Assembly (NCBI GenBank): GCA_022508745.1
Contig: JAFLUP010000018.1
Coordinates: forward strand, 1 to 39,786
DNA: 39,786 nucleotides
DNA from: Oscillospiraceae bacterium
GTDB lineage: Bacteria > Bacillota > Clostridia > Oscillospirales > CAG-382
Direction of reading: 5' to 3'
Shown: one piece after another, positions 17,918-34,036 of the stretch
How positions within the stretch are numbered: position 1 is the first letter of the stretch
How the letters are laid out: every line of letters begins with the position of its first letter
The notes under the pieces: generated by a model
What the model was told of the DNA's origin: nothing
The model's database searches: none
Seen by the model: only the letters and a program-made list of their open reading frames with translations
Made by a program: the position numbers and the translations under genes

Positions 17918-18514
17918 GATCGGGACATCGCCTACGATCAGGGTTTCAGCGATCAAAAGATCAAAGGAGAGGGTATCCATGCAGGATTCCAGCGGCGCGA
18001 GGTAGTTGACCGTCACGCTGAAATGCAGGAAAACGCGGTGGAGCGTCTGGTTGATCCCGGCACTGTCAAGGGTACTTTTCAGTTCATTCGCGACATTTCC
18101 CGTGGAGACGGGACGGACATGGATCAGCGGCCCTCTACCGGAAAGCAATGCCGTGGAAGTCAGGTTTCCCAACGGGATACCAAAAGTATCGTTCCGGTAA
18201 TCCCGCAGTTCCGCAAGCAAACGCACGGTCAGTTCGGAAGCAAGCAGGGTCAATTCGTTGGAATGGATCCGGACGGCTGTAACGCGCCCGGACGCGTCCC
18301 TTTCCACGGTGACATATTCTTCCGCTCTGTCGCGTATCTCTTGATAGAGCGCGTTTTGCAGCGTCAGAGACAGCATGGCGTTGCCGGCGGTTTGCGCAAA
18401 TGCCTTCATCGCTTGCTCCAACCGTTTGGAAAACACGGCACAGCCGTAAAGCAGCAGTGCCGCCGTCAAAAACAGCAAAAACAAACATCTGTATTTTTTC
18501 CGTATTCTTTTCAT
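17903..18514 (-). CDS. yunB: Sporulation protein YunB-like
   Basis: MKRIRKKYRCLFLLFLTAALLLYGCAVF...GIPLGNLTSTALLSGRGPLIHVRPVSTGNVANELKSTLDSAGINQTLHRVFLHFSVTVNYLAPLES...IAETLIVGDVPILYTG. Confidence 0.85.
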   Translation of the reverse strand: MKRIRKKYRCLFLLFLTAALLLYGCAVFSKRLEQAMKAFAQTAGNAMLSLTLQNALYQEIRDRAEEYVTVERDASGRVTAVRIHSNELTLLASELTVRLLAELRDYRNDTFGIPLGNLTSTALLSGRGPLIHVRPVSTGNVANELKSTLDSAGINQTLHRVFLHFSVTVNYLAPLESCMDTLSFDLLIAETLIVGDVPILYTG

Positions 18515-18552
18515 AGCAGGCAGTTTTCTCCGTGTTTCAAATATCCTGCTTG

Positions 18553-18579
18553 ATTGTATGCCGCTGGCACAGCGGCTAT
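18553..18579 (-). promoter_or_regulatory. Sigma-E-like (sporulation) promoter for yunB
   Basis: Minus strand ATA (18579-18577) - 16 nt - CATACAAT (18560-18553), matching the known B. subtilis sigma-E pattern, 39 nt upstream of the start codon. Confidence 0.6.
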
Positions 18580-18617
18580 GCGCTGCCTGCAAAACTCGAA
18601 ATAGGGGAGGTTATATC

Positions 18618-28148: not shown

Positions 28149-28235
28149 TCTCTATCCACCCTTTTGAAAATATATAGCATTATACAAAATGCAAATTTTG
28201 TAGATTATAATAGGGGCTTATAAGCGGAAATAGGG

Positions 28236-28270
28236 CGCACCCATACAGATGGACGGTCTGTATGGGTGCG
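28236..28270. repeat. Perfect 14-bp inverted repeat between convergent ABC and radA genes
   Basis: CGCACCCATACAGA-tggacgg-TCTGTATGGGTGCG; possible bidirectional terminator but no clear T-tract on either side. Confidence 0.8.
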
Positions 28271-28278
28271 ATTCTGCT

Positions 28279-29679
28279 TTATTGGTCCTTTGTCTGCTGG
28301 GACGCGTTCAACAACCGAAGCAGATCAAAAATGCTCTTCAGACGGATGATCTCCATCCCATAGCTGTTCTTCATACGTTCAGCGTTGTGATACGGGATAG
28401 CGGCACGCTTGAATCCAAGACGAGCCGCGTTGCTCAAACGCTGATCCAATACACTGATGGAGCGACATTCGCCCGCAAGTCCAATCTCTCCCATGACGAT
28501 CAGATCTTCCGGAACCGGAATATCCTTATAGCTGGAAAGCAGCGCCATGGCAGCGGCAGCGTCACACGCCGGTTCATCGATCCGCAGACCGCCGGCGATA
28601 TTCAGATACACATCCTGCGTAGAAAACCGCAGTCCCAGCCGCTTCTCCAGAACGGCAAGCAGAAGCGACAGCCGGTTATAATCAAACCCGGAAGCCATTC
28701 TGCGTGGCGACGGAAATGTCGTGTTAGACGCAAGCGCCTGGATCTCCGTGACCATCGGACGGCTGCCTTCCATAACGGCCGCCGCGCAGCTGCCGGGAAC
28801 ATCCTTCGGGCGCTGCTGGAGGATCCGCTCCGACGGTTTTTCGATTTCCGTCAGCCCTTCGTCCGACATTTCGAACATACCGATCTCATTCGTGGAACCG
28901 TAGCGGTTCTTGACCGCCCGAATGATGCGGTATGCGTGCTGCTTGTCGCCCTCGAAATAAAGCACAGCGTCCACCATGTGTTCCAACACCTTCGGACCGG
29001 CGATGGCGCCGTCCTTGTTGACGTGCCCGACGATCAGGATGGAAACACGGTCCTCTTTCGCCTTTGTGATGAGCTGCATGGTGGTCTGCTTGACCTGCGT
29101 GATGGTACCGGGCGACGAAGGAAAATTCTCGTCGTACATGGTCTGTATCGAGTCGATAATGACCACATCCGGTTGATTTGTGTTGATTTCCGGAATGATT
29201 TTGTTGACTGCTGTTTCGCTGAGCACCATCAGATTGGAGGTATCTACGCCGACACGGGTTGCCCGCAGCTTGATCTGCGAAATAGATTCCTCGCCGGTGA
29301 CATATAACAATTTTGCGTTTTTGCCCACATGTTGGCAAATCTGTAGCAATAAAGTGGATTTTCCGATGCCCGGTTCTCCGGAGATCAGCACCACCGAGCC
29401 TTCTACGAGTCCTCCGCCCAACACCCGGTCAAACTCTCCGAGCCCCGTCAGAAAGCGAATGTCGTTCTGGAAGGTGATTTCATTGATCTTCAGCGCCTTG
29501 GAGCGTTCCACCGTTTGCGTATTCCGAAGCGGCGCACGCTTGACCTTTGAGGACGAAGAAACCGGCTCCGGCGCAACCGCCTGTTCTTCCATGGTGTTCC
29601 AGGCGCCGCACTCCGGGCATTTTCCGTACCATTTTGAAGTCACGTTTCCGCAATTTCCGCAAACATAATTGGTTTTCAA
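28279..29679 (-). CDS. radA: DNA repair protein RadA/Sms
   Basis: CGNCGNVTSKWYGKCPECGAWNT zinc motif, GEPGIGKSTLLLQ, KNRYGSTNEIGMFEM, C-terminal Lon-like domain. Confidence 0.96.
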   Translation of the reverse strand: MKTNYVCGNCGNVTSKWYGKCPECGAWNTMEEQAVAPEPVSSSSKVKRAPLRNTQTVERSKALKINEITFQNDIRFLTGLGEFDRVLGGGLVEGSVVLISGEPGIGKSTLLLQICQHVGKNAKLLYVTGEESISQIKLRATRVGVDTSNLMVLSETAVNKIIPEINTNQPDVVIIDSIQTMYDENFPSSPGTITQVKQTTMQLITKAKEDRVSILIVGHVNKDGAIAGPKVLEHMVDAVLYFEGDKQHAYRIIRAVKNRYGSTNEIGMFEMSDEGLTEIEKPSERILQQRPKDVPGSCAAAVMEGSRPMVTEIQALASNTTFPSPRRMASGFDYNRLSLLLAVLEKRLGLRFSTQDVYLNIAGGLRIDEPACDAAAAMALLSSYKDIPVPEDLIVMGEIGLAGECRSISVLDQRLSNAARLGFKRAAIPYHNAERMKNSYGMEIIRLKSIFDLLRLLNASQQTKDQ

Positions 29680-29705
29680 CGTCTTATTACCTCATTCATG
29701 GAATG

Positions 29706-29888
29706 TTATTTGTCATCCGATATTCCGGCAAATCCCAATATGCTGCCAACAAGAAACAACGTAATGCCGATAATAAGAGAAATCGGTCCGATTCCGTTGA
29801 AAGCATTTGCCTCCATTTGAAAAAGAGCAAAAATGGAAAGCAAAATTCCACCCAGAATATAAGCGCATCCCAAAATAACTTTTTTCAT
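29706..29888 (-). CDS. Small two-TM membrane protein (60 aa)
   Basis: MKKVILGCAYILGGILLSIFALFQMEANAFNGIGPISLIIGITLFLVGSILGFAGISDDK; fits between cwlD and radA. Confidence 0.65.
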   Translation of the reverse strand: MKKVILGCAYILGGILLSIFALFQMEANAFNGIGPISLIIGITLFLVGSILGFAGISDDK

Positions 29889-29910
29889 GTCTGTTTTCCT
29901 CTGGTGATGA

Positions 29911-30705
29911 TTAGTGTATCATTTCTTCCTGCATCTTTTCGCAATATTGCCCGATTCCGGCGGCCAGTGCGAACGCCAGTTTATCCTGATACTCCGCATC
30001 CGCAAGATTATGTGCGTCCTGCGAATTGGAAAGAAAGCCGCACTCCACGATCACAGCGGGAATTTGCAGGTTTTTCAACAGAAAGATGGTCCGATTATCC
30101 GATTTAATGGTGCGACGATTGTCCGGCATGACCAATGTAGACGAACTTTGCAGCGCTTCCGCGAGCATTGCGCTGCGCGGATCATTCATGGAATAAAAGG
30201 TTTGCAACCCTTGACAACTTTCCATCGGAAACTTATTCATGTGAATACTGATAAAAATCGCGTCAGAATATGCCTCCGCGATTTTTAACCGATTATATAG
30301 ATCGTAGTATTTCTTGCGGGTCTCTTCCCCGCTGTTATAAAGCAGCCGATCGTCAGACCGCGTCAAAACCACGTTGTAGCCGGACAATTTCAGAAACTCC
30401 GCGATTTTATTTGTGATCGACAGGTTCAGCACTTTTTCGTCCAGCCCGTTGGCGACAGCGCCGGGGTCTTCCCCGCCGTGACCGGCGTCCAGAATGATGG
30501 TGAAAGCGGATGTCTCCCCTGCCAACAAGCCTGCCGGATGTTCCGCTTCCGCAAACGCCTGATAGCCCACCGAAGTCACAAGTGACGTAATGCAGTAGAA
30601 CAACAGGACGGCGATCAGCACCGTGGCAAGCAGGAAAAGAAAGATGCGAGGTTCCCTGAAATCATGGGGTGCGAAGGACTTTTCTGCGGACTTTTTCATG
30701 CACAT
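29911..30705 (-). CDS. cwlD: N-acetylmuramoyl-L-alanine amidase, CwlD-like
   Basis: N-terminal TM; IILDAGHGGEDPGAVANGLDEKVLNLSI, IFISIHMNKFP, AVIVECGFLSN. Internal ATG at 30699 is an alternative start. Confidence 0.9.
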   Translation of the reverse strand: MCMKKSAEKSFAPHDFREPRIFLFLLATVLIAVLLFYCITSLVTSVGYQAFAEAEHPAGLLAGETSAFTIILDAGHGGEDPGAVANGLDEKVLNLSITNKIAEFLKLSGYNVVLTRSDDRLLYNSGEETRKKYYDLYNRLKIAEAYSDAIFISIHMNKFPMESCQGLQTFYSMNDPRSAMLAEALQSSSTLVMPDNRRTIKSDNRTIFLLKNLQIPAVIVECGFLSNSQDAHNLADAEYQDKLAFALAAGIGQYCEKMQEEMIH

Positions 30706-30751
30706 TCATACCTTTTTCAATCGTTATATTGTATGTTATAAGGTATGAATG
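30703..30751 (-). promoter_or_regulatory. 12-bp perfect inverted repeat overlapping cwlD SD and start codon
   Basis: CATTCATACCTT (30703-30714) and AAGGTATGAATG (30740-30751) on + strand; 25-nt spacer holds CATACAAT on the minus strand (30735-30728). Confidence 0.7.
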
Positions 30752-30784
30752 AGTGGGACGTGTTATGCCGGTGGATCGGGACGG

Positions 30785-31333
30785 TCACTTCCCTCTTTTG
30801 GTGCTGAACATCATGTGCAGCGGACGGTCAAGCGCGCCCAGCAGGTAGCCAAGCGCACCGGAGAGGAGCGCCGGCAGTGTGAAGAGCAGGCAAACCAGCC
30901 ATCCCATGATATTGGCTTTCGGAAAATAGGTATGCAGCTGAAGGTAACTTCCGTGCAACGCGTAATAGATTAGCTTACAAATCACTTCGGCTTCATCCGA
31001 AAGAAAGAGCGTCACAAGCATCCCGATCAGAATGAACAAAACGAGCGGGCAAGAGCCAAGCAGCGCAATCTTCAGCCCCAGCGCCTTTCCGGGTCGCGCC
31101 GCGTCGGCCGCACGGTAATGGTGCTTTTCCCCAAGCTGGAACAAATTGTCATACTGCAGAAAGCAAAGCAGACCAATGGAAAAGATGCAGCCGATAATAG
31201 AAACCGCAGGGATTCCAAGCCCGATGGTGGCAAGCCCGATGCTGATGCCCAGAATAGACATGACGATCTGATTGGTCCAAAAGCGAATGGTCTGCCGGGA
31301 ATAGGCGTTCCAGAACTCACGAAATCCTTTCAT
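30785..31333 (-). CDS. Membrane protein, possibly DUF624-like
   Basis: MKGFREFWNAYSRQTIRFWTNQIVMSILGISIGLATIGLGIPAV...; multi-TM; ATGA overlap with upstream cohesin-like CDS. Confidence 0.65.
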   Translation of the reverse strand: MKGFREFWNAYSRQTIRFWTNQIVMSILGISIGLATIGLGIPAVSIIGCIFSIGLLCFLQYDNLFQLGEKHHYRAADAARPGKALGLKIALLGSCPLVLFILIGMLVTLFLSDEAEVICKLIYYALHGSYLQLHTYFPKANIMGWLVCLLFTLPALLSGALGYLLGALDRPLHMMFSTKRGK

Positions 31334-32625
31334 GCGAGCTTCTTCTTTCTGATAACGAGGAACGTGACAACAGCTCCCACAAGAACGGCGGCCACACAAA
31401 TGACCACGATCACGATTTTGAGCGTACTGCCCTCGTTTTCATTCGAATCGAAAGATTCATCGGAGATGGCTTCCCCATCGAATTCGTAGCGGGTCGCCAA
31501 ACGGTAGCTATCCGCGGACAGTTCACTTCCGTTTTCGTCCACCAACCGTTGATTCTCAATGGTAAGCAGACCCGGGTCAAAATCCGTACCTTTGAAGGTG
31601 AATTCGACCTGAATCCCCAGCTTTCCGCCTTCCTTCACGCCGTGACCTGCATCGCTGTTCTGCACGCAAAATCTGACACTACCCTTCCCCGGTTGGGTCA
31701 GATCCTCCGTCAAATCCTTCTGCCAATCCTCCGGCAAAAGACATGTATAGCTGACGTACTGCAGGAAATCAGCGTTGTATTTGAGGGTAAATTCTAAACC
31801 GGAAACGCCGGTAGGGTTCGTAATATCTTCCACCGTGATCCACATCAAAACCTTTTTGGAAGGTTTTTCCGCACCGGGGTCGGAAACATCCGACGATTCG
31901 ACAGAGTCGGGTCCATCGGCAGAAGTTTCGTCAGTGGGAAGTTCCCCCGAACCGTTCCCGTTTTCCGAACTGTCCGACCCCTGCGAGACAGCAGGATCTT
32001 CGGATTCGTTTACGGAAGATTCCGGGGTTGAGGGCTCATCACTCACCACCGGCTCCACGGGAGAATCCTCGTTGCCATGCAGACCGATCACGCATCTTTG
32101 GTCCGGAAGATAGAACAAATCCAACGCAACGTCTGCAAAAATAATATTCGTCACGGTGATTTCCACGGACTCTGCGGAATCCGAAAGAACCTTAAAATGC
32201 AGATCCGTGTACAGCTCGCCATTCCGTTTGACGCCGTTGGTGGTGGCTGCGTTTCCCAACTGGTAATCCAGATATTTTTCTTTTTTGCCGGTTTCCGCCT
32301 GCTGTACACTGGTGAAATCCACCGCATCCGGATCATCACCGGAGAAATCCCATCCGGTGGGTTTGGAGTTTTCCCAGGAAATCAGTTCAAGAACGGAATT
32401 GTCGTAACGAATCTTGAAAAGCGCGCCGAAGAGCCCGCTCTGGGCGGTGATCTGTTCCACCGACACGCGGACGGTGATCGTTCCTTCTTCTGTATTTTCT
32501 TCAATACCCTCAATCTTCAACGCTGCGACAGAATCTTCCTCCGCACTTACGGGAAGCGCCGCGCCGATGCTGCCGCAAAGCAGCAAAACGAGGATGCAGA
32601 TCGCCAATATACGTCTGGCAGTCAT
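31330..32625 (-). CDS. Membrane-anchored protein with two cohesin-like domains
   Basis: Signal peptide MTARRILAICILVLLLCGSIGAALPVSAEE; GTITVRVSVEQITAQSGLFGALFKIRYDNSVLELISWE and ITNPTGVSGLEFTLKYNADFLQYVSYT; acidic Ser-rich linker; C-terminal TM plus RKKK. Confidence 0.78.
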   Translation of the reverse strand: MTARRILAICILVLLLCGSIGAALPVSAEEDSVAALKIEGIEENTEEGTITVRVSVEQITAQSGLFGALFKIRYDNSVLELISWENSKPTGWDFSGDDPDAVDFTSVQQAETGKKEKYLDYQLGNAATTNGVKRNGELYTDLHFKVLSDSAESVEITVTNIIFADVALDLFYLPDQRCVIGLHGNEDSPVEPVVSDEPSTPESSVNESEDPAVSQGSDSSENGNGSGELPTDETSADGPDSVESSDVSDPGAEKPSKKVLMWITVEDITNPTGVSGLEFTLKYNADFLQYVSYTCLLPEDWQKDLTEDLTQPGKGSVRFCVQNSDAGHGVKEGGKLGIQVEFTFKGTDFDPGLLTIENQRLVDENGSELSADSYRLATRYEFDGEAISDESFDSNENEGSTLKIVIVVICVAAVLVGAVVTFLVIRKKKLA

Positions 32626-32660
32626 GATATACCCCCTATCTTACGAAAAACGTGTTACCC

Positions 32661-33950
32661 CTATTTCGCCACCTTGTCCTGCTGATCCGGATGAAGGTCC
32701 TCGATGGATTTGGAAACCGTGTGTTGAATAGGCTTCCAACCGACCTTTTTGAACAGCGCCACCACAGCGATGGGTATGTAGGTAGCCATATAAATCGGGA
32801 ATGTGAAAACCGACCAGACCTTCCGACCGCGGGAACATCCGCTGATATTTTCCCCTTCTGTCAGCATGGTCAGAAGGCCCATTATGAGCATCAACAGGTA
32901 GTAAAACAGGATAAACATGACCATGATGGTGGCAGCGCGTTGCAAACCGTTGCTTTCCGGGTAGATGGACCAATAAACCAAGTCCATAACCGCACAGAGG
33001 GTGGAAACGGCAAAACTCATGATGCCGACAAAAATCGTAATCAGCATATCGTAGCAAGCAAAGCTGCCGTGGAAAATGCCCTTGAATAGCTTTCCGCCGT
33101 ATTTCCCGAACACCTGATAAAAGCCCTTTGCCCAACGCATACGCTGGCGCCAGGATTGCGCAAAGCTCTCCGGCTGCTCATCGTAAAGGATGGAGTTTCC
33201 GCAGTACCCGATCTTTTCCCCATCCACAACGGTGCTGACCGTGAATTCCATATCCTCGGTGAGCAGATGGAAGGGCCAACCGCCATTTTTTTCGATCAGC
33301 TCACGGCTGACACAAAAGCCGGTTCCGGAAATGGCGCAGCTGGTGTTCAACCGCATACGCGCGTAATTCAAATACTTTGCCTCTCGCAGGAACCAAAGAG
33401 AATAGCCGGCAGAGATCCAGTTGGTGCCGTAGTTTTTAGAATTGCGGTAGGACGTCAACGCGCGATACCCGCGGTTCAGCCCCAGATTCATTTCTTCAAT
33501 GAAACGCCCGTCGATGAGGTTATCAGCATCCAGAACAATGTAGGCGTCGCAATCGTCCTGCTGTTCACGTAGATGGGCAAACAGATAATCCAGCGCATAC
33601 CCTTTGCCGATCAGGGTATCGCTGTTCCTCTCCACCACGTAGGCGCCTTTTTCCTCACCGATCCATGCAGTACCGTCCGTACAGTTATCGGCGATCACGA
33701 TGATCTTGATCAGCTCGGCAGGATACGTCTGTTTGCGGATGCTGTCGATCAGCTGACCGATCACCTTTTCCTCATTACGTGCAGGAATGATGACGCCGAA
33801 CTTATTTTGCTTGTCGGTAAGAAGCGGCTTTTCCTTCTCCTCCGTGAATAACACATAAAACGTATAGAAAAACTGGTAAAGGAAAAGCAAGGCAAAAAAA
33901 CCGGTCAAGGAAATTTCGATGATCGTAATGATCATTCTTGCTGTCTGCAT
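32661..33950 (-). CDS. Processive family 2 glycosyltransferase, membrane protein
   Basis: GVIIPARNEEKVIGQLIDSIRKQTYP, ADNCTDGT, VLDADN, LTEDMEF, QRMRW; C-terminal TM helices. Confidence 0.9.
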   Translation of the reverse strand: MQTARMIITIIEISLTGFFALLFLYQFFYTFYVLFTEEKEKPLLTDKQNKFGVIIPARNEEKVIGQLIDSIRKQTYPAELIKIIVIADNCTDGTAWIGEEKGAYVVERNSDTLIGKGYALDYLFAHLREQQDDCDAYIVLDADNLIDGRFIEEMNLGLNRGYRALTSYRNSKNYGTNWISAGYSLWFLREAKYLNYARMRLNTSCAISGTGFCVSRELIEKNGGWPFHLLTEDMEFTVSTVVDGEKIGYCGNSILYDEQPESFAQSWRQRMRWAKGFYQVFGKYGGKLFKGIFHGSFACYDMLITIFVGIMSFAVSTLCAVMDLVYWSIYPESNGLQRAATIMVMFILFYYLLMLIMGLLTMLTEGENISGCSRGRKVWSVFTFPIYMATYIPIAVVALFKKVGWKPIQHTVSKSIEDLHPDQQDKVAK

Positions 33951-34007
33951 AAAAACCTCCGAAGGAGTTAAATAAGCACGATGGTATCATAGAAATTTAC
34001 AGAATAG

Positions 34008-34036
34008 ATTATACCATTCTTTCTTTCGAAAGTCAA
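34008..34036 (-). promoter_or_regulatory. Sigma-A promoter for the GT2/cohesin/cwlD/radA operon
   Basis: Minus strand TTGACT (34036-34031) - 17 nt - TATAAT (34013-34008). Confidence 0.8.

Follow-up and report, generated by a model that had tools for sequence, protein, structure and literature searches.

In the genome of an Oscillospiraceae bacterium, the ribosome-binding site (RBS) of the sporulation gene cwlD can pair with the transcribed copy of the gene's own sigma-E promoter. The best explanation, to which we assign a probability of about 0.86, is a translational lock embedded in the promoter: the vegetative read-through mRNA should be locked and the mRNA initiated by sigma-E should be open. 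Comparative sequence analysis indicates that the arrangement has been preserved throughout an order of gut bacteria, with base changes that compensate each other. The basis for this reading was computed and consists of the helix, the promoter match, the conserved complementarity, the covariation, the strand asymmetry of the mismatches, the dependence on genomic context and the predicted costs of opening the RBS.

The cwlD gene and its likely operon

We analysed a stretch of 39,786 nucleotides (hereafter the window), in which cwlD occupies positions 29911..30705 of the minus strand. It encodes an N-acetylmuramoyl-L-alanine amidase (Pfam Amidase_3, E 4e-45) whose best NCBIfam model is TIGR02883 (spore_cwlD), at 180.2 bits and thus below the curated equivalog cut-off of 221.55; we call it cwlD also because of its sigma-E promoter and conserved context. 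The CwlD proteins of this lineage may be under-annotated, since the protein scores below the curated cut-off and CwlD is nevertheless its best model. A first-pass annotation, made from the sequence alone, had described the enzyme as cortex-lytic. The literature corrects this, as CwlD acts in making cortex muramic-lactam (PMC3789822), not in cortex lysis. Translation may start at the ATG at 30705 (264 aa) or at the ATG at 30699 (262 aa), and the Shine-Dalgarno (SD) sequence AAAAAGG (30711..30717) suits either.

The upstream operon, on the same strand, begins with a GT2 glycosyltransferase gene (32661..33950; Pfam PF13641, E 5e-22). It is preceded by a sigma-A type promoter, TTGACT-N17-TATAAT with a TG before the -10 (34008..34036), identified by consensus match only (11/12). 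Next comes a gene for a cohesin-domain protein with a C-terminal membrane helix (31330..32625; Pfam Cohesin, E 2e-13) and then, directly upstream of cwlD, an open reading frame for a membrane protein (30785..31333). The cohesin-domain protein has a Ser/Glu-rich linker, sits between the GT2 and membrane protein genes, and its stop codon overlaps the next start (ATGA). A Pfam search assigned the membrane protein to no family; it has homologues in 31 other loci, and these adjoin cwlD upstream in most close loci. Downstream lies radA (28279..29679, minus strand). A RadA-type motif comes after cwlD in 56 of the 68 close loci, and likewise in 31 of the 44 loci where read-through is not expected. On the operon strand, the terminator scan found nothing credible before a terminator-like 15-pair hairpin past radA (28236..28270), the likely end of the operon; it also gave weak 5-8-pair stems inside coding sequence, in about the number expected by chance. 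Given the sigma-A promoter at 34036-34008 and the lack of a terminator until 28270-28236, GT2 - cohesin protein - membrane protein - cwlD - small ORF - radA is likely a single vegetative unit. That read-through reaches cwlD is a prediction from sequence, made from this promoter, the missing terminator and the way in which the lock tracks read-through context (see below).

An inverted repeat at the start of cwlD

The first-pass annotation reported a perfect 12-bp inverted repeat here, which we confirm. On the minus strand, the distal, anti-RBS arm CATTCATACCTT (30740..30751) and the proximal arm AAGGTATGAATG (30703..30714) form 12 of 12 pairs (30751-30740 with 30714-30703) around a 25-nt loop. 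The proximal arm includes the SD core AAGG and the ATG at 30705, i.e. the longer transcript has an upstream arm complementary to both SD and start. The earlier placement of the cwlD start within the arm holds for the ATG at 30705; the start may also be the ATG at 30699, just past the arm.

Folding the two transcript forms gave the expected difference. The 121-nt read-through RNA has a predicted energy of -26.2 kcal/mol, a fold that contains exactly the 12-bp helix, and an energy matched by 1 of 200 dinucleotide shuffles. In a 141-nt frame the total energy is unexceptional (z -1.0) and the helix still forms. It is absent from both shorter RNAs, starting at 30733 and 30721. Searches with Rfam covariance models across 28200-34000 gave zero matches up to E = 1.

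Taken alone, the cwlD repeat is only mildly to moderately unusual, and it is the comparative tests that carry the claim. A search of the window gave five perfect inverted repeats with arms of 12 bp or longer and loops of at most 40, so one somewhere is to be expected. Of 133 genes sampled in this genome, 13 (approx. 10%) have an RBS that is no easier to open, which leaves function unproven by a single locus. The stem, being 12 bp and A+T-rich, may also be openable by vegetative ribosomes or helicases.

A predicted sigma-E promoter overlapping the distal arm

The best-scoring promoter of the region (score 15.5, using a matrix hand-set from the published consensus) is GCATAAC-N14-CATACCTT (30768-30740, minus strand). 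It fits the sigma-E consensus kmATATT - ~14 nt - CATACAnT and is conserved in relatives. The -35 element GCATAAC (30762..30768) aligns with GCATATC/GCATATT in the nearest relatives (L004-L006), which retain GCATATY-N14-CATACCTT, and the -10 element (30740..30747), identical in these loci, fills 8 of the 12 positions in the distal arm. The position of the -10 (C of CATA + 13) places the predicted transcription start at ~30734 (30732..30736), in the loop, in agreement with the earlier suggestion of a start within the spacer. This internal promoter, recognized by sequence, would thus yield transcripts that lose the upstream arm. The -10 and the missing -35 of the first-pass annotation have to be revised: it found no -35 because it had taken CATACAAT, in the loop (30728..30735), as the -10, whereas the conserved -10 is CATACCTT in the distal arm, with GCATAAC at the right distance (N14). 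We rejected CATACAAT as the -10, since its best -35 gives a score of just 6.9 and the box is missing in the nearest relatives; it is a possible secondary sigma-E/sigma-K-like box.

Sigma-E promoters scoring at least 9 occur in 90% of the family loci and in 8.5% of shuffles. The genome encodes a sigma-E orthologue, which at 335.8 bits falls slightly short of the curated cut-off (348.6), and a sigma-K orthologue above the PRK05803 cut-off. In Clostridioides difficile cwlD belongs to the sigma-E regulon, and sigma-E and sigma-K share a common -10 and have different -35 elements (ATA versus AC) (PMC3789822). Since CATA is the complement of TATG, a sigma-E -10 close to a start codon already supplies the seed of an anti-start arm.

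From these elements we infer the actual transcripts, the start site, the effect on translation and the purpose of silencing cwlD during growth. The sigma-A promoter at 34036 would drive a vegetative mRNA covering the genes for GT2, the cohesin protein, the membrane protein, cwlD and radA. In this long mRNA the transcribed cwlD promoter (the end of its spacer and the -10 box) would pair with the SD/start region, and the paired RBS would keep ribosomes off cwlD while RNA polymerase continues to radA. During sporulation, sigma-E would initiate just past its own -10, at ~30734. The blocking arm is promoter DNA upstream of this start, so the sigma-E mRNA cannot contain it; its RBS would be open and cwlD would be translated.

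Conservation of the proposed lock among relatives

We compared cwlD loci from a family sample (40 genomes with cwlD), an order sample (a cwlD match in 330 of 394 genomes, the source of most of the 60 loci taken) and a named collection. The latter consists mostly of metagenome-assembled genomes (MAGs) labelled Oscillospiraceae, Ruminococcus or Clostridia, and also includes Acutalibacter, Oscillibacter and Evtepia; we took the name of the order, Oscillospirales, from these labels. Removing near-identical upstream regions left 161 loci (31 family, 58 order, 72 named), mostly from Oscillospirales-type Clostridia. Most of the genomes are MAGs. The calls of starts, promoters and upstream genes followed fixed rules, and some of the start codons are wrong. 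The null model swaps in the upstream region of another locus and preserves the -10, the SD and the start. Loci were put in the read-through class when a co-directional gene ended within 160 nt with no terminator (n=69), and in the no-read-through class when there was a terminator or a divergent neighbour upstream (n=44). This classification of upstream contexts was backed by homology. Several fairly complete genomes are among those of the window's genus that lack a cwlD match (G009, G015, G017 and others), which suggests that sporulation, or at least cwlD, has been lost within this genus.

The primary sequence around the cwlD start is not conserved, and hairpins recur with different letters. 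Examples are the arms TAGTTTTCATATAA/TTATATGAAAACTA (L010), ACGCATATGAATCA/TGATTCATATGCGT (L012), TTAGAACGCATA/TATGCGTTCTAA (L017), TTCACCGCCGAA/TTCGGCGGTGAA (L143) and TTTTTCATAAAGTATA/TATACTTTATGAAAAA (L139). Duplexes between the upstream region and the RBS are more stable than under the swap null in the family (-18.0 versus -12.3, p 4e-11), the order (-16.4 versus -12.4, p 2e-12) and the named collection (-17.8 versus -14.6, p 4e-7). Opening the region from SD to start costs 13.5 kcal/mol in the read-through mRNA versus 4.2 in the sigma-E mRNA in the family, and 11.7 versus 4.5 kcal/mol in the order; this difference exceeds the swapped-upstream null in both (p 3e-11 and p 2e-12, respectively). 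The bases that pair with the RBS are concentrated between -12 and +8 relative to the first base (C) of the -10, i.e. in the promoter DNA upstream of the start site.

The strength of the lock depends on context. It amounts to 9.2 kcal/mol in the read-through class, versus 3.1 for the swapped-upstream null (p 7e-23) and versus 5.0 in the no-read-through class (p 3e-6), and the effect of context is also significant outside the family (p 2e-5). When proteins were clustered at 52% identity, the two classes differed similarly (9.4 versus 4.9, p 2e-4) and 33 of 34 read-through loci lay above their own null (p 2e-10). A weak excess over the null remains in the no-read-through loci (p 0.0002; p 0.013 after clustering). 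The next gene downstream of cwlD, taken as a control, showed no lock (1.2 versus 0.9, p 0.16).

Two kinds of base change indicate that the helix is maintained by selection in relatives. Mismatches in stems that were found by Watson-Crick matching alone are mostly G-U (28) and rarely A-C (4), versus 86:52 in the swap null (Fisher p 0.004); this points to the sense-strand RNA, rather than a DNA operator, as the selected object. Compensatory changes, which the first-pass annotation had proposed to look for in an alignment of relatives, are present: 29 cells are double-changed versus 9.0 after shuffling, and 0 of 500 shuffles reached as many. This count comes from 21 sequences in the CAT:ATG register, in which pairing falls from 89% to 37-56% when the register is slid; as the sequences were picked for that register, the percentages (not the swap tests) are inflated, and only the counts of changes carry weight. 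Pairing in L004-L006, from the window's own genus, uses a partly different register. The compensatory changes, the tolerance of G-U on the sense strand and the dependence on read-through support the core of the original proposal, namely that the read-through mRNA would hide the cwlD start and an mRNA from an internal promoter would do without the first arm.

Outside the order, the mean lock at cwlD in 40 phylum-wide loci is 4.2 versus 2.3 for the null (p 0.12). The lock is thus no general feature there, although strong individual cases occur at L191, L195, L203, L218 and L225. In L225, L217 and L214, from genomes of 6-7 Mb in one family of the phylum, the cwlD upstream region has a long complementarity (CCCCCTTGTCCCATATAGAT / ATCTATCGGGACGAGGGGG) that surrounds a -10 of the sigma-E type; such a lock may also have arisen beyond this order.

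Alternative explanations

Long inverted repeats are typical operators, and the arms overlap core promoter elements, as would be the case if a dimeric regulator bound both arms and controlled the sigma-E promoter. However, the sequence, length and spacing of the arms vary freely between loci and only their complementarity to the RBS stays. Mismatches are G-U rather than A-C (28:4), which is not expected of a DNA site, and the strength of the lock follows the direction and terminator of the upstream gene. With neither a conserved site nor strand-neutral mismatches, we regard an operator as very improbable. The hairpin might instead be an intrinsic terminator or attenuator closing the upstream operon, as it sits between this operon and cwlD and a T-rich stretch (at least 6 T in 8 nt) follows the second arm in 9 of 64 relatives. 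It lacks the G+C-rich stem and U tract of such elements: in the window, TGCATGAA comes after the second arm and provides no U tract, the scan finds no terminator here, and 55 of the 64 relatives are also without a U tract. Moreover, the stems were sought with a second arm at the SD or start, and those at this place lie far above the swap null. Termination thus seems a faint prospect as the general explanation, and partial termination may occur in some relatives.

A similarly faint prospect is an element for RNA processing or stability, e.g. an RNase III site that parts the upstream mRNA from cwlD-radA. The presence of a 12-bp helix in an intergenic region, with radA after cwlD in most loci, would suit such a role. 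Yet, among the 64 stems found near the start, the arms cover the whole start codon in 24 and the SD core in 33, many stems have just 9-12 bp, and loci with an unlikely read-through show a weaker effect. Finally, chance deserves consideration because the CATA of the -10 trivially complements the TATG of the start, making CAT:ATG automatic in one register; the remainder could be A+T-rich luck, and the window has its five perfect repeats. The swap nulls, which preserve the -10, SD and start, fall well short of the real loci (3.1 versus 9.2 kcal/mol, p 7e-23), and an inverted-repeat score of at least 10 is reached by 23 of 69 loci versus 1.2% of swaps. These nulls refute chance as an explanation for the group of loci, and it is the least probable of the readings considered here.

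Relation to known systems

The structural features of the cwlD locus, as read from its sequence, are those of phage T4 gene e and Bacillus subtilis sigG. In T4, long early transcripts of gene e (lysozyme), and also of soc, 49 and I-TevI, sequester the SD and AUG; transcripts from the late promoters are without the 5' strand of the structure and are well translated, with an approximately 100-fold effect for e (reviewed in PMC3014915). In related phages, a late promoter is retained within the DNA encoding this 5' strand (PMC3014915). As in gene e, the long cwlD transcript is predicted to hide the SD and start, and the transcript from the inner promoter to be without the blocking strand. Unlike the T4 genes, which depend on a phage late sigma factor, cwlD is a chromosomal sporulation gene under sigma-E. 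At cwlD the anti-start sequence is the -10 box itself (CATA), and the figure of ~100-fold is T4's alone.

For sigG (spoIIIG), PMC5942855 cites Masuda 1988 and Sun 1991 for a hairpin proposed to block translation of the spoIIG read-through mRNA; the hairpin has 20+ bp and cannot form in PsigG transcripts. The likeness lies in a read-through hairpin within the same developmental pathway, and the differences from cwlD lie in the forespore sigma-F/G promoter, the length of the hairpin and the restriction to one gene. The lock proposed here is tied to sigma-E promoters of the mother cell, spans an order at cwlD and sigK, and comes with covariation and a dependence on context. The cwlD gene of C. 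difficile (CD0106) is also driven by sigma-E, with a -35 containing ATA and a -10 resembling the CATA type (PMC3789822). We compared it by its published description, and the literature searched describes no read-through lock for it. Within that literature, which excluded subscription papers, we found no lock at cwlD and no sigma-E read-through lock beyond the case of sigG. Hence, the principle is known from T4 gene e and B. subtilis sigG, and its order-wide use at cwlD appears to be new. The mother-cell sigma-E version, the -10 as the anti-start strand, the recurrence at sigK and the dependence on read-through context also appear to be new.

Such a lock would account for the ability of compact genomes to keep developmental genes in housekeeping operons: the message would be made during growth and be unreadable, and promoter choice alone would unlock it, without a regulator protein. 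This suggests that RNA-seq of growing cells would show untranslated cwlD and sigK transcripts, and calls for caution when the state of sporulation is deduced from transcript levels in gut metatranscriptomes. Locks of the T4/sigG type, of which the literature searched has few scattered examples, would gain an evolutionary rule: they are present where read-through is possible and weak elsewhere. Many natural compensatory variants of the lock are available for experiments.

Recurrence at other sigma-E-type genes

According to sequence comparisons, sigK shares the design, as do other sigma-E-type genes to a weaker degree. The product of sigK is the master regulator of the final stage in the mother cell. 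The orthologue in the window's genome (L240:9986 / L265, C13, minus strand) has the sigma-E promoter GCATACC-N15-CATAGAAT, arms CGCCCCGC/GCGGGGTG and a predicted lock of 11.7 kcal/mol. Across the order, sigK locks average 6.1 versus 1.7 (p 0.004). Four relatives (L267, L268, L271 and L276) have perfect or near-perfect variants of the sigK arms, e.g. GGAGAGCATAGA/TCTATGCTCTCC. The window itself includes yunB (18514, region 18460-18590, minus strand; TIGR02832, over cut-off), and the values for this gene across the order are 4.4 versus 2.2 (p 0.04). The yunB of the window is preceded by a near-perfect sigma-E promoter, GCATAGC-N14-CATACAAT, and its predicted lock pairs CAAGCAGG with CCTGCTATG, even though its called upstream neighbour is on the opposite strand.

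When 1,120 genes from five genomes were scanned without bias, 25 other sigma-E-like promoters (cwlD excluded) emerged, with locks of 3.2 versus 1.7 kcal/mol (p 0.03). The signal is carried by the 7 of them that have a close co-directional gene (5.0 versus 1.4, p 0.04). For sigma-E genes in general, the scan is suggestive only. A mother-cell gene that comes to lie downstream of a growth-phase gene might evolve its -10 and spacer into an antisense of its own RBS. We entertain tentatively, at somewhat less than even odds, that in the spore-forming members of this order the sigma-E promoter itself serves as a general translational off-switch that insulates the regulon, including sigK. In the window's genome, strong sigma-E promoters with an arm pairing to the RBS also precede a DUF4830 gene (L247:4046, minus strand) and a TspO/MBR gene (L231:345, plus strand), which are possible uncharacterized mother-cell genes.
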